Shown here: positions 8,193-15,731 of the stretch, piece after piece
Layout of the letters: each line of letters begins with the position of its first letter
Position numbering within the stretch: the first letter of the stretch is position 1
IMG/VR virus record: IMGVR_UViG_3300030646_000038
Coordinates: 1 to 23,833 of that record
Strand: one strand, 5' to 3'
Length of the DNA: 23,833 nucleotides
Origin: a virus
Program-made: the position numbers and the translations under genes
Notes under the pieces: model-generated
The model's database searches: none
Told to the model about the DNA's origin: nothing
Seen by the model: the letters and a program-made list of their open reading frames with translations, nothing else

Positions 8193-8207
8193 GATGATTC
8201 CTTTCGT

Positions 8208-8259
8208 TTGAAACGCCTAGCTGGCGCAGAACCCTTCACGCCGTCATATGCGTGAAAGG
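8208..8259 (-). terminator. Paired hairpins downstream of the major capsid gene
   Basis: The 78-nt gap after the capsid stop holds a stem TTCACGC (8235-8241) with GCGTGAA (8250-8256), 8-nt loop, extended by CC/GG beyond one mismatch. A shorter CGCC/GGCG stem lies around 8215-8227. No T-run follows on the minus strand. A partial terminator or mRNA-stabilising element after the most highly expressed gene is the likely role. Confidence 0.4.
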
Positions 8260-8270
8260 AACTGTGCTGC

Positions 8271-9197: not shown

Positions 9198-9773
9198 TTA
9201 CGGGGTGATGCGCGGAGCTCCCGGTTCGGCCTGTGCTGCGAGGATCGCGTCGCGGTTCTCGACGTAGTAGGCGTGATCGGATTGCATCCGTGCTTGCGAA
9301 TATGTCTTCGGCTGGCCTTGGCCGCCGTTGATGTCCGCGCCACCTGAACGAGCTGCTGTGGTGGTTGAGCCTTTGAATGCGAGTGCTGCCTGCGCGGACG
9401 CTTCCATGTCCTCGGCTGTTGCACCGTGGATGAGCTCGGAGGGGACACCGGTTTTACTGGCGATGTCCGCACGGAGAGCGCGTGTTTCGGCTTCGGCAGC
9501 TCGTGCCTCGGCCGCTGCGGCGCGGTCCTGTACCTTCTGGAGCTCGGTTTTGTTCGCTTCTTCGAACTCGTCCCACTGCTTGGCCTTCGACTTGAGCGGT
9601 CGCAGTTCGCGAAGCTCTTCCTTCTGGGCGGCGAGTGCCTTGACCAGCGGGTGGTCAGCGGGCAGGTTGGTGAGATCGAGCGTTGATGTTTCGGCAGCTG
9701 CCTGCTGTGCTTCGGTGGCGGCCGTTTCGGTCGCTGCTGTCTGCTCAGTAGTCGCTTCTGTGGTTTCGGACAT
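9198..9773 (-). CDS. Capsid scaffolding protein
   Basis: 191 aa from ATG 9773, with a GGGAG site about 10 nt upstream. Residues 1-30 are a Thr/Ala/Glu-rich low-complexity lead. Residues 45-105 form a long charged coiled coil (LAAQKEELRELRPLKSKAKQ, KVQDRAAAAEARAAEAETRA). A short Gly-rich linker follows, and the basic/aromatic C-terminal section (TYSQARMQSDHAYYVENRD) likely contacts the coat protein. Size, coiled coil and position immediately before the major capsid gene are those of siphovirus scaffolds, which shape the procapsid and then leave. No protease motif is visible. Confidence 0.85.
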   Translation of the reverse strand: MSETTEATTEQTAATETAATEAQQAAAETSTLDLTNLPADHPLVKALAAQKEELRELRPLKSKAKQWDEFEEANKTELQKVQDRAAAAEARAAEAETRALRADIASKTGVPSELIHGATAEDMEASAQAALAFKGSTTTAARSGGADINGGQGQPKTYSQARMQSDHAYYVENRDAILAAQAEPGAPRITP

Positions 9774-9811
9774 TGGTCTGTTGCTCCCATTTCGGGTTTG
9801 GTGGGGAACTA

Positions 9812-9824
9812 CGCCGTTTCGGCG
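9812..9824. repeat. Short hairpin carrying a repeated CCGTTTCGGCGC string
   Basis: CGCCG (9812-9816) and CGGCG (9820-9824) flank a TTT loop in the gap before the scaffold gene. The 12-nt string CCGTTTCGGCGC (9814-9825) recurs exactly at 14707-14718, just upstream of the small terminase start. Both copies lie outside genes. It may be a shared RNA element or chance in G+C-rich DNA. Confidence 0.35.
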
Positions 9825-9839
9825 CAGGCTTGTGGGCCG

Positions 9840-12895: not shown

Positions 12896-14224
12896 TTAGT
12901 TGATGAGTTGACGCCAGACGGTTTCGGTGGTGACGATCGCGTACCGGAAAGCGTCTAACCAGTGGTCGGCGACTTTCACCGGTTTGTCTTCGCCCTTATC
13001 GGTCGCTTTCGTGTCCCACGAGTAGCCGGGGATTTCCTGATTCAGCGACGGTGTCCGTGTGGTGGTGAACAGGTGACCGGATGCGAGCAGGGAAGCGACA
13101 GTGCCGATGCCGTAGCTGACTGAGTTGTCGGCGTGCCGCAGGTTCCTGACGCCGTCCTCTTGAAGCTGCACTTGGAACGATGCTGCGGCAGGGTCGAGGA
13201 ACACCCATTCGGGTTCAAGCGCGGTCTTGTACGGCAGGTGCTCGCCTGCGAGCCAGGTTCGGAAACCTTCGGATAGTTGCTGATCAGTGAGACGTGTCGA
13301 CGTTTGCGCCGGGTTGTGGCCCCACTCATCGACCGCGTACAGTCTGCAGTCGACACGGCGACCGTAATCGTCGAGGACGTCAGCGATACCGAGGATGACG
13401 GCTGCGGTGGGGTTCGTGGTGCCGTAGTCGACACCGACCGCGAGGAGCCGGCGCATCGGCGGTAGATCCTGCCATGGGACAACGTGGATGTCTTGATCCC
13501 ACATCGAGTAAATGGCACCCTCAGCAGCAACCCATTCACCTTGGATGAACCTGCGGTACCAGAGCCCCGTGAACTCGCGTGAGATCGACTCAATGTATTC
13601 GGGTGTCAGTGAAGGGTTGTCTTTGAGAGTGAAGTGGAAGCGACGCCAATCCGTCAACTCGGTGATGCGGTCGAGGAAACGGCGTTTCAGCCAGTGCGCC
13701 GGATTGTCGGGGTTGGTGGTGCCGAAAAGTTGCGCACCCTTCACCGACATGCGACCAAGCAGTTGGGTGAAGAACTCCTCAGGAATGACGGTGATCTCAT
13801 CCACATACGCACCAGCGACAGTGAGACCGCGGAGCACCTTCTCCGACTTCGCATCCGAAGCGCCGATGACGTAGACGGTGCGTCCCAGGATGGTGCCGGA
13901 TGGTGCACCGGCCGTGTAACGGACCTGTGAGGCGACGATGCCGAACAGTGACTCGTCCTGCAATGGTGCGAACACGTTCCGTGCTGCAGTGTCACGGGTG
14001 CGGGCGATGACAACGAGTTGGCCGCCCGCGGGTGCGGTGGCGACGAATATCAGGAACCGGATCAGCGACCCGAGCGTTTTGCCGGACCGGATTGATCCTT
14101 CCCAAATGCAGACTCGACCATCGGAATCTTTCACCGAATCGAGTTGCGCATCGGAGAGGAAAACGTCTAACCCCGTGTTTTCTGGCACCCAACCGACCTG
14201 TCTACTGGTCTGGGCCTTTGACAC
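12896..14224 (-). CDS. terL: Terminase large subunit
   Basis: 442 aa from GTG 14224, overlapping the small terminase gene by 23 nt; a GTG at about 14191 is an alternative start. ATPase motifs: Walker A GSIRSGKT (43-50), Walker B AYVDEI (139-144) and the coupling motif GTTNPDNP (168-175). The RNase H-like nuclease carries acidic residues in GVDYGTTNP (Asp266), FLDPAA (Asp344) and DHWLDAFRYA (Asp420/Asp424). It is a Terminase_3/PBSX-like packaging motor that translocates DNA through the portal and cuts the concatemer. All catalytic residues appear intact. Confidence 0.95.
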   Translation of the reverse strand: MSKAQTSRQVGWVPENTGLDVFLSDAQLDSVKDSDGRVCIWEGSIRSGKTLGSLIRFLIFVATAPAGGQLVVIARTRDTAARNVFAPLQDESLFGIVASQVRYTAGAPSGTILGRTVYVIGASDAKSEKVLRGLTVAGAYVDEITVIPEEFFTQLLGRMSVKGAQLFGTTNPDNPAHWLKRRFLDRITELTDWRRFHFTLKDNPSLTPEYIESISREFTGLWYRRFIQGEWVAAEGAIYSMWDQDIHVVPWQDLPPMRRLLAVGVDYGTTNPTAAVILGIADVLDDYGRRVDCRLYAVDEWGHNPAQTSTRLTDQQLSEGFRTWLAGEHLPYKTALEPEWVFLDPAAASFQVQLQEDGVRNLRHADNSVSYGIGTVASLLASGHLFTTTRTPSLNQEIPGYSWDTKATDKGEDKPVKVADHWLDAFRYAIVTTETVWRQLIN

Positions 14225-14690
14225 CGAGCATCGAAGCGATCCCCGTCAACAGTGAAACGGCGGCAGCCTCGCCAGGATTCGAACCCTCAGTCGCCTTCGT
14301 GGCCTTATCGAACGCGATCGCCGCCGTCGTCACCGCATTACGGACCACCTCAACAGGTGGCCGGTCGAGAAGATGCTCGTTGTAGTCGTTGTCTTTGCCG
14401 CCGAAGTTGTACACCAGATACTCGCCATCAAGCGAATGCAGCAGATCCCGAGCCGCAACAATCATCAGCTGCGCGAGCTCCAAACGGTCAGCAGCCAGAT
14501 CAATGGTGTGCGCCCGAACAGCGATCGCAGTCTGAGAACGGTCGAACGCGAGCCCGTTGTCCTTCGCCCACCGCGAAACAGTCGACGGCGCAACATTCAG
14601 CTTCGCCGCGATCTGCCGGCACGAATGCCCATCATCGAACAGCGCACGAGCTTCATGACCGCGTTTGACGTCGAACGTTGCAGCGGCCAT
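14202..14690 (-). CDS. terS: Terminase small subunit (HTH)
   Basis: 162 aa from ATG 14690, with GAGGTGA 4 nt upstream. Residues about 10-45 form a helix-turn-helix (ARALFDDGHSCRQIAAKLNV, then PSTVSRWAKDNGL) of the type that binds the packaging start site. The rest is helical (ELAQLMIVAARDLLHSLDGE) and ends with an Ala-rich region and the GIASMLGVKG tail that may contact the large subunit. The gene lies directly downstream of the structured 14691-15059 region, which is a natural candidate for its DNA target. The role is assigned from HTH plus position; sequence conservation of small subunits is low in general. Confidence 0.87.
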   Translation of the reverse strand: MAAATFDVKRGHEARALFDDGHSCRQIAAKLNVAPSTVSRWAKDNGLAFDRSQTAIAVRAHTIDLAADRLELAQLMIVAARDLLHSLDGEYLVYNFGGKDNDYNEHLLDRPPVEVVRNAVTTAAIAFDKATKATEGSNPGEAAAVSLLTGIASMLGVKGPDQ

Positions 14691-14723
14691 GGTTCACCTC
14701 GTTGCACCGTTTCGGCGCGTGTG

Positions 14724-14738
14724 GAGGCGTTTCGCCTC
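14724..14738. repeat. Perfect 6-bp hairpin GAGGCG-TTT-CGCCTC
   Basis: Arms 14724-14729 and 14733-14738 are perfectly complementary with a 3-nt loop, 34 nt upstream of the small terminase start. On the minus strand it would fold in the leader of the terS transcript. Confidence 0.45.
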
Positions 14739-14832
14739 GTGGTTTGGTTGTTGGTGCGACGTGAGGCTAGACGCGCTCTCTGCTGGGAAACTCGGTGCGT
14801 CGTCGGCTTACCGGCGTCTTGACCAACGGGGG

Positions 14833-14905
14833 TTCGCGATTCGGTGGCCTGCTACCTAGTTGCTGCTGGTCGCCCTTGGTCGGTCCACCGATGCCGAATC
14901 GCGAA
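14833..14905. repeat. 12-bp inverted repeat with 49-nt spacer
   Basis: TTCGCGATTCGG (14833-14844) is exactly complementary to CCGAATCGCGAA (14894-14905). A secondary pairing CGGTGG (14842-14847) with CCACCG (14885-14890) overlaps it, so two alternative folds are possible. A GACCAA/TTGGTC pair (14821-14826, 14877-14882) adds another. Confidence 0.6.
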
Positions 14906-14914
14906 GAATGTTGA

Positions 14915-14947
14915 ATGCCCGGGACGATTGTGGTCGTCTTCGGGCAT
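14915..14947. repeat. Hairpin ATGCCCG/CGGGCAT with inner GACGA/TCGTC stem
   Basis: Outer arms 14915-14921 and 14941-14947 (7 bp) enclose an inner 5-bp stem (14923-14927 with 14934-14938), separated by a one-base asymmetry. The result is a stable stem with a TTGTGG loop. Confidence 0.5.
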
Positions 14948-14968
14948 AGTAATGCGAAGTGGCTAAAG

Positions 14969-15002
14969 CATAGCTTCTGGCCTATATAGGTTGCAAGCTA
15001 TG
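14969..15002. promoter_or_regulatory. 34-bp dyad with inner palindrome CCTATATAGG (operator candidate)
   Basis: CATAGCTT (14969-14976) and AAGCTATG (14995-15002) are exact inverted copies centred at 14985.5. The perfect 10-bp palindrome CCTATATAGG (14981-14990) has the same centre. Twenty-six of 34 bases pair. A further GCATAG copy lies at 14944-14949. A weak minus-strand promoter match (TTGCAA, 18 nt, TATGCT) runs through it. It looks like a binding site for a symmetric protein; the partner is unknown. Confidence 0.55.
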
Positions 15003-15022
15003 AAGTGGGTGTGTCATCAGCT

Positions 15023-15054
15023 GTTCCGGGAACGCAACTCTGTGTTCCCGGAAC
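15023..15054 (-). terminator. 11-bp hairpin after the early block
   Basis: GTTCCGGGAAC (15023-15033) pairs with GTTCCCGGAAC (15044-15054); C-G and G-T pairs extend the stem to 13. It begins 5 nt after the stop of the last early gene (15060). No T-run follows on the minus strand. Each arm is itself a palindrome around one central base, so a protein-binding site is the alternative. Confidence 0.5.
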
Positions 15055-15059
15055 GTTGC

Positions 15060-15731
15060 TCATGCGACTTCCTCGTGGGTTTCGATGTCGAAGCGGAGTT
15101 CGCGGAGTGCTGAGCGGCCGTGCCAGACGTTCGCGCAGGACCGGCATAGTCCGGTGGCTTTGTCGAGGGTTTCAGCGCCCACGTTGCGGTATTCGATGAT
15201 CAGGGCACCTATCTGGTCGCCTGTCCTCGGATCGAATGCCCACCGTTCCCCACAGATCGGGCATGGGGAGGTGATTTCGAGGGTCACGGGTGGGTCGAAC
15301 ATCGCGGAGATGTTTCGTGCCCACCCTTCGACGAGTTTGAGGGTGTCGGCTTCCATTGATTCGGTGATCTTGCCGGCGCGGCGGCGGTTCTCGTAGTCGA
15401 CGTACCATTCCCGGAGGCGTTCCCAGATGTACTTGTGTTCGCGTGGCGCGGGGAGGGCCCTGTGCCAGGTGTTGATCTGCTTCACGATGGCATCCCACAT
15501 TTCGACTGCTGCGGGGTTGATGGGGAGGAATGAGCTACCGGAGGTTGCACCGTTCTTCCCGTCGTTACCGGTCGCTACAGCGTCGCGGAGCATACGTAGC
15601 AGGGGTGCGTGGTCGACGTCGGAGATGCAAGCTATCTCGAGGTCCCCGACCTGCTTCGTTTGCAGGACTTTGGTGATGTGGTTCAGGGTGAGTCGGTCGA
15701 TTGAGTCCAGGAGGAAGTTGTCGTCTTTCAT
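15060..15731 (-). CDS. Zinc-binding-like protein of unknown function
   Basis: 223 aa from ATG 15731 (MKDDNFLLDSIDRL), which overlaps the HNH stop by ATGA. A longer in-frame opening to 16232 was rejected because it runs antisense-like through the HNH gene and has a Thr/Gln/Arg-rich composition. CPIC (157-160) and CRSC (196-199) with GERWAFDPRTGDQ between them look like a split zinc ribbon. Residues 75-115 are helical and aromatic (VEMWDAIVKQINTWHRAL, YIWERLREWYVDYE). Proteins of this type (possibly the DUF7341 group) occur just before terminase in actinobacterial phages, but the function is not known. It is the last gene of the early block. Confidence 0.8.
   Translation of the reverse strand: MKDDNFLLDSIDRLTLNHITKVLQTKQVGDLEIACISDVDHAPLLRMLRDAVATGNDGKNGATSGSSFLPINPAAVEMWDAIVKQINTWHRALPAPREHKYIWERLREWYVDYENRRRAGKITESMEADTLKLVEGWARNISAMFDPPVTLEITSPCPICGERWAFDPRTGDQIGALIIEYRNVGAETLDKATGLCRSCANVWHGRSALRELRFDIETHEEVA

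Follow-up and report, generated by a model that had tools for sequence, protein, structure and literature searches.

Paired hairpins at the terS and scaffold ribosome-binding sites of actinobacteriophages suggest a common RNA switch that couples capsid assembly to DNA packaging

Background

What is the function of a gene-free, repeat-rich gap that lies directly in front of the small terminase gene of a phage in which the other genes are closely packed? The window (the whole stretch of DNA analysed here, 23,833 bases) is a fragment of an uncultured actinobacteriophage. All of its genes are on the minus strand, in the order: early genes (at high coordinates), the zinc-ribbon gene, the gap (14691-15059), terS, terL, portal, MuF, scaffold, major capsid and tail genes (Table 1). 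The question reaches beyond this fragment: how scaffold, capsid and terminase are kept in balance, when a single long late message encodes them all, is well understood for only a few model phages. The original prediction, made from the sequence of the window, offered a cos or pac site, late control, or a conserved structured leader.

Table 1. Genes and sequence elements of the late region discussed in the text
Feature	Positions	Strand	Basis
terS, small terminase, HTH, phrog_5536	14202..14690	-	
terL, large terminase	12896..14224	-	
Head scaffolding protein, phrog_1793/2592; candidate loop-binding factor	9198..9773	-	
Zinc-ribbon protein gene, phrog_1467, weak DUF7341; upstream of gap	15060..15731	-	
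Two GTTCC[GC]GGAAC palindromes at 21-bp spacing; two operator-like sites, or a single 14-bp hairpin	15023..15054	.	repeat search
Weak promoter-like pair TTGCAA-N18-TATGCT, 8/12 consensus matches	14967..14996	-	below promoter-scan threshold
Operator-like palindrome CATAGCTT-N4-CCTATATAGG-N4-AAGCTATG, overlaps promoter-like pair	14969..15002	.	repeat search
Leader hairpin ATGCCCG...CGGGCAT	14915..14947	-	RNA folds
Long leader hairpin TTCGCGATTCGG...CCGAATCGCGAA, without U-tract	14833..14905	-	repeat search and RNA folds
Hairpin 1 of terS leader, GAGGC-[GAAAC]-GCCTC	14724..14738	-	folds as hairpin
Hairpin 2 of terS leader, GCGCC-[GAAAC]-GGTGC, 2 nt before CGAGGTGA ribosome-binding region	14704..14718	-	covariation
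terS Shine-Dalgarno GAGGTGA	14694..14700	-	read from sequence; invariant in 19 aligned leaders
Scaffold-leader hairpin, same class, CTGCGCC-[GAAAC]-GGCGTAG	9809..9827	-	
Second scaffold-leader hairpin CCC-[GAAAT]-GGG, 3 bp, overlaps Shine-Dalgarno GGGAG	9786..9796	-	by analogy

Results

The gap is non-coding and strongly folded

No minus-strand open reading frame of 50 or more codons lies inside the gap. The inverted repeats, originally put at no fewer than five, number at least six: the repeat tool reported the pair 15023-15036/15041-15054, the palindrome 14969-15002 and the stem 14833-14844/14894-14905, to which we added the hairpin 14915-14947 and two 15-nt hairpins (14724-14738 and 14704-14718). 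The stretch 14685-14965 folds with -99.1 kcal/mol (z -3.8), a value not reached by any of 200 shuffles, and sub-stretches of the gap give z-scores of -5.1, -4.0 and -3.1. When the whole window was tiled on the coding strand (120-nt tiles), the gap was covered by three tiles, two of which ranked 4th and 5th of 198. GAAAC loops closed by a stem of at least 5 bp occur three times on the coding strand of the window, against a shuffle mean of 0.27 (0/300 shuffles reach three). An Rfam search of the window and 12 relative loci returned nothing at or above the gathering score except two tRNAs in one relative (L234), and a known RNA family was rejected on this ground; a tRNA search of the window found none. 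Elsewhere in the window, the roughly 80-nt gap that follows the major capsid gene (8193-8270, minus strand) contains a 10-bp hairpin, CCUUUCACGC...GCGUGAAGGG, with the strongest fold of all window tiles (z -4.8); it is possibly an mRNA stabiliser or a partial terminator.

Read 5' to 3' on the minus strand, the gap consists of the GTTCC palindromes, a low-GC stretch, the hairpin 14947-14915, the long hairpin 14905-14833, two small hairpins, the GAGGTGA motif and the ATG codon of terS. The GTTCC[GC]GGAAC palindromes are the only exact copies in the window. Besides an identical contig, a scan of viral contigs for the paired pattern returned six in which a similar pair is present (L200-L205); the pair is likely an operator for some regulator. 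Positions 14946-15015 tie as the lowest-GC 70-mer (44%, compared with 60% for the window), and the weak promoter-like pair lies in this stretch, within a nested palindrome. Judging from these motifs, the upstream part of the gap is a candidate late promoter/operator. Its long hairpins and repeats were seen in no relative found, save one identical contig (L002/L019/L206). The zinc-ribbon gene directly precedes the late operon, the position of Q in lambda. A scan detected it only in the identical contig and in one relative (L120), where it does not adjoin terS, and we rejected it as a Q analogue.

Covarying hairpins abut the ribosome-binding site of terS

The conserved part of the gap is confined to the last 48 nt next to terS, which contain two tandem hairpins. 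Relatives also have hairpins in this position, with loops that are lineage-specific (CAGGN, CTGGC, AAGAG or GCAY); in those identified by TerS the stem letters differ, and the wider range of relatives identified by TerL has tandem CTGGC/CAGGC hairpins upstream of terS. Because MAFFT did not bring the stems into register when entire leaders were aligned, covariation was counted on 23 distinct 15-mers with CAGGN, CTGGC, AAGAG or GAAAC loops, anchored on the loop and not on the pairing. In this set 92% of the cells are paired, against 57.6% in shuffles and at most 50% when the frame is slid, the covariation score is 0.83 (shuffles 0.19, sd 0.04), and both-side changes occur at all 5 stem pairs. 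The stems have changed in a compensatory manner beyond chance, as expected of a structured RNA. Aligning related phages in search of covarying stems had been proposed as a check of the original prediction, and it does reveal conserved stems, within these 48 nt only.

The location and orientation of the hairpins are equally specific. AAGAG loops with a stem of at least 4 bp are found in 15/21 terS leaders and at 1/135 places elsewhere in the same loci; CTGGC hairpins number 29 on the plus strand and 4 on the minus strand. In a held-out set of 15 loci from Microbacteriaceae genomes, none of which was used to define the motif, its density is highest in the terS leader, with 2.9 hits per kb, and falls to 0.29 per kb for the capsid zone, 0.05 per kb for the stretch separating the two sites and 0.02 per kb for the opposite strand, so the same place and strand are used in independent genomes. 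Hairpin 2 ends 0-8 nt from the Shine-Dalgarno sequence in most leaders; the hairpins overlap or abut the ribosome-binding site, as those of translational operators do.

The same hairpins precede the scaffold gene

The terS gap, described originally as the only long non-coding stretch, is real, but it is not the sole leader gap: a 66-nt gap in front of the scaffold gene (9774-9839) has the same hairpin. The second hairpin of this leader is equivalent to CCC-GAAAC-GGG-AG in two relatives (G028 and L247); 3-bp stems such as this one and that of G028 are counted as hairpins by analogy only, and the minimum-energy fold of the isolated scaffold leader favours another pairing. Hairpins at both terS and scaffold are present in the window, in G028, G021, G026, G027, G012, G018, G315, G080 and others, and in the cultured phages GMA1, TinyDot and REQ3. 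The loop is phage-specific and usually equal at the two genes (GAAAC/GAAAC, CTGGC/CTGGC, CAGGT/CAGGT, GCAY/GCAY). G026 has two CTGGC hairpins and G028 two GAAAC hairpins per site, G027 has CAGGC plus CAGGA at both, and GMA1 and TinyDot have GCAY loops at both genes, while REQ3 combines GCAC at terS with GAAY at the scaffold gene. Among the held-out loci, a strict scan finds one loop at both sites in G315 and G080 and one loop class at both in G256, and in G425 and G273 the loops match by eye. In the phages with AAGAG loops the two sites differ (AAGAG at terS, GCAGG at the scaffold gene), and one or both sites are absent from G016, G019 and 5/15 held-out loci. Eastland has three CAGGA hairpins, at the scaffold site only, which are the sole ones in its genome with a C-G-closed stem of at least 4 bp.

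A third GAAAC hairpin, with a changed stem, lies within the first scaffold codons of G028 (CGCCC-GAAAC-GGGCG; L246, scaffold start) and of L247 (966-982, GCACCC-GAAAC-GGGTGC). Kissing between the loops of the two sites was considered and rejected: CCAGG/CCUGG could pair, but GAAAC, AAGAG and GCAGG cannot.

The loop class follows the scaffold family

The class of the loop matches the family of the scaffold protein in 30/30 assigned phages. G[AC]A(A)Y loops accompany scaffolds of phrog_1793/2592/25524 in six of them (the window, G028, L247, GMA1, TinyDot and REQ3), and CWGG/GCAGG/AAGAG/CCGGC loops accompany phrog_8952/15186/22063 in the other 24. The naive probability of such perfect separation is 1.7e-6, a figure to be read knowing that the phages are related, that the classes were named after inspection and that the independent switches number two or three. 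On the TerL tree the loop and scaffold labels coincide, with three switches, at least two of which are forced by well-supported branches.

G020, the phage nearest to the window by terminase, is its sister on the TerL tree (100/100) and has another scaffold family and another loop at terS, while G028, which is farther by terminase, has the scaffold family and the loop of the window. Identities of the window to G020 and G028, respectively, are 69/54% for TerS, 80/71% for TerL, 52/53% for the portal and 63/67% for the major capsid protein. The window scaffold matches that of G020 over only the 40 C-terminal residues and that of G028 with 45% identity over 141 residues. Gene by gene, the window is about as close or closer to G020 than to G028, with the exception of the scaffold body. 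It is thus the scaffold, rather than TerS, TerL, portal, MuF or capsid, with which the loop at terS changes, and we therefore name the scaffold as the candidate reader of the loop. In the scaffold of G020 (L241 14352-15074) the body has been swapped and the C-terminal 40 residues are common with the window; this shared part is likely the coat-binding end.

Discussion

A model of the late leader and its alternatives

We propose that the gap is the start of the late mRNA, with a candidate promoter bearing operator-like palindromes, followed by a structured 5' leader. Its working part would be the paired small hairpins (a short GC-rich stem with a C-G-closed five-base loop) set against the ribosome-binding site of terS, with the same element and loop set against that of the scaffold gene farther down the operon. 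The element would act in the mRNA, most probably on translation of terS and scaffold. A phage protein, for which the scaffold is the best candidate, may read the loop: free scaffold could bind both leaders and repress its own synthesis and that of the terminase until it is taken into procapsids. We rate the chances that the gap begins the late mRNA, and that its hairpin pair sets terS and scaffold translation through a loop-reading phage protein, as about even. Repression of its own synthesis by the P22 scaffold, which is post-transcriptional, is a precedent, although to our knowledge scaffold proteins are not a hairpin-binding class. Taken together, the paired hairpins suggest that capsid building and DNA packaging are connected by a common RNA switch. 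As a tentative generalization, two-gene RNA operators read by the scaffold may be a feature of headful-packaging actinobacteriophages, in which unassembled scaffold would throttle scaffold and terminase synthesis, and loop and scaffold body would be exchanged together and co-evolve.

The main rival, which we consider rather unlikely, dispenses with the binder: the hairpins would act on the mRNA by themselves, insulating the ribosome-binding site from pairing with upstream sequence or protecting a processed 5' end, which would ensure good translation of terS and scaffold. In its favour are the closeness of hairpin 2 to the Shine-Dalgarno sequence in most leaders, the likeness of the CAGG, GCAGG and AAGAG loops to parts of that sequence, and some scaffold genes whose Shine-Dalgarno is inside a hairpin (GTCC-CAGGA-GGAC). 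However, a pure stabiliser would need no loop that is constant per phage, matched at distant genes and switching with the scaffold family, and the CTGGC and GAAAC loops do not match the anti-Shine-Dalgarno core.

Transcriptional control is less probable still. Here the reach of late transcription would be set by a promoter together with hairpins of the leader and sites for attenuation or antitermination (put- or boxB-like). The candidate promoter in the low-GC stretch agrees with this, as do G020, L003 and L004, where a promoter-like pair is followed, before terS, by a short hairpin and then by a GC hairpin whose tail is rich in T. Attenuation is possible because some scaffold-site hairpins carry T-runs, namely the first hairpin in G028 and L247, with T6 upstream of the scaffold gene. 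On the other hand, most hairpins are about 5 bp long, lack a T-run and abut the ribosome-binding site, and a strict terminator scan shows no enrichment before terS (0.20 vs 0.23 per kb), which led us to reject a general promoter-terminator leader there.

That the repeats act as double-stranded DNA, as a pac or another packaging or protein-binding site recognized by TerS or a repressor, appears improbable. The gap adjoins terS, TerS has an HTH, headful relatives need a pac somewhere, and the 21-bp-spaced GTTCC[GC]GGAAC pair and the palindrome 14969-15002 resemble DNA operators. In the 48-nt element, however, complementarity is conserved and half-sites are not, the loop has a single orientation with respect to the direction of transcription, and the scaffold gene has the element as well. 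The covariation of the stems, this single orientation and the contact with the ribosome-binding site lead us to prefer an RNA element of the late message to a site in the DNA.

A cos site, with terminase cutting the gap to leave cohesive ends, is the least credible explanation: the place of the gap, ahead of terS and two genes from an HNH gene, is that seen in HK97-like cos phages, but no conserved asymmetric cut sequence is seen in it and its repeats outside the hairpins are unconserved. It is unlikely because phages with homologous terminases are circularly permuted and so lack defined cohesive ends, both cluster BP (PMC9583777; TerS up to 37% and TerL 47-51% identical to the window) and Appa (PMC7302621; TerL 44%). 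A conserved cut sequence with terminase-binding repeats was not found before terS, where only the hairpins and the ribosome-binding site are conserved. Nor does the nearby HNH gene, cited in the original prediction, speak for cos: the window has three HNH genes, and the permuted phages Eastland and Appa have HNH genes too. Of the three options offered originally, the conserved structured leader and late control have stood, the former with covarying stems only in the 48 nt by terS, and cos has not. In the Streptomyces phages Raleigh (L016 5100-5250) and Eastland (L018, last 150 bases) a common CGGCGTGCCCGGAAAC element and a GC-rich hairpin precede terS.

The comparative evidence leads to a small phage-specific RNA signal at two late genes, with a named candidate reader. 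If the scaffold is that reader, unassembled scaffold would couple packaging to procapsid supply. The element is directly testable, because GMA1, TinyDot and Eastland, for which complete genome records and listed laboratory hosts exist, carry the hairpins. Loop/scaffold pairs could be used as RNA-protein tools, and the hairpins could help in annotating terS and scaffold starts.

Comparison with known systems

In the open full-text literature we found no description of this hairpin element and no equivalent of it. Like lambda boxB and HK022 put, it consists of short pentaloop hairpins in phage leader RNA, and boxB loops are likewise phage-specific and matched to a cognate protein. N-type antitermination combines boxA, boxB and a cognate N protein, and a position at the ribosome-binding site is atypical for it; the hairpins described here abut ribosome-binding sites instead of lying early in transcripts, and no boxA was noticed. 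The cos and pac sites of tailed phages are also located beside terS, but the related phages package by the headful mechanism, and what is conserved here resembles an RNA element and has a second copy at the scaffold gene.

The described elements nearest to it are repeats upstream of start codons in other actinobacteriophages, which are set apart by their sequence conservation, by the absence of covariation and by the class of gene that they precede. The phage-wide SAS of cluster K mycobacteriophages (GGG-N7-CCC), with its extended form ESAS, lies a few bases upstream of start codons and has a proposed role in translation initiation (PMC3203893). SAS is, however, a conserved sequence without covarying stems, confined to non-structural genes, and the ESAS repeats do not support RNA pairing (PMC3203893), whereas the present hairpins have covarying stems and occur at two late structural genes. 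The defining sequence GGGATAGGAGCCC, 3-7 bp before non-structural starts (PMC3203893), was not found in the leaders that we read, which carry other sequences and precede structural genes. Microbacterium cluster EG phages have 18-bp inverted repeats 14-22 bp upstream of start codons, but as 8-10 copies of one repeat at right-end genes (PMC7302621).

Autogenous translational operators (the MS2 coat/replicase hairpin, T4 gp32, RegA, the P22 scaffold) are also similar: there too, a structural gene of the phage's late message has a small hairpin beside its ribosome-binding site. The present element differs in that two genes, terS and scaffold, have a tandem pair in common, that the phages are double-stranded DNA phages of Actinobacteria, and that the loop varies with the family of the scaffold, the candidate binder.
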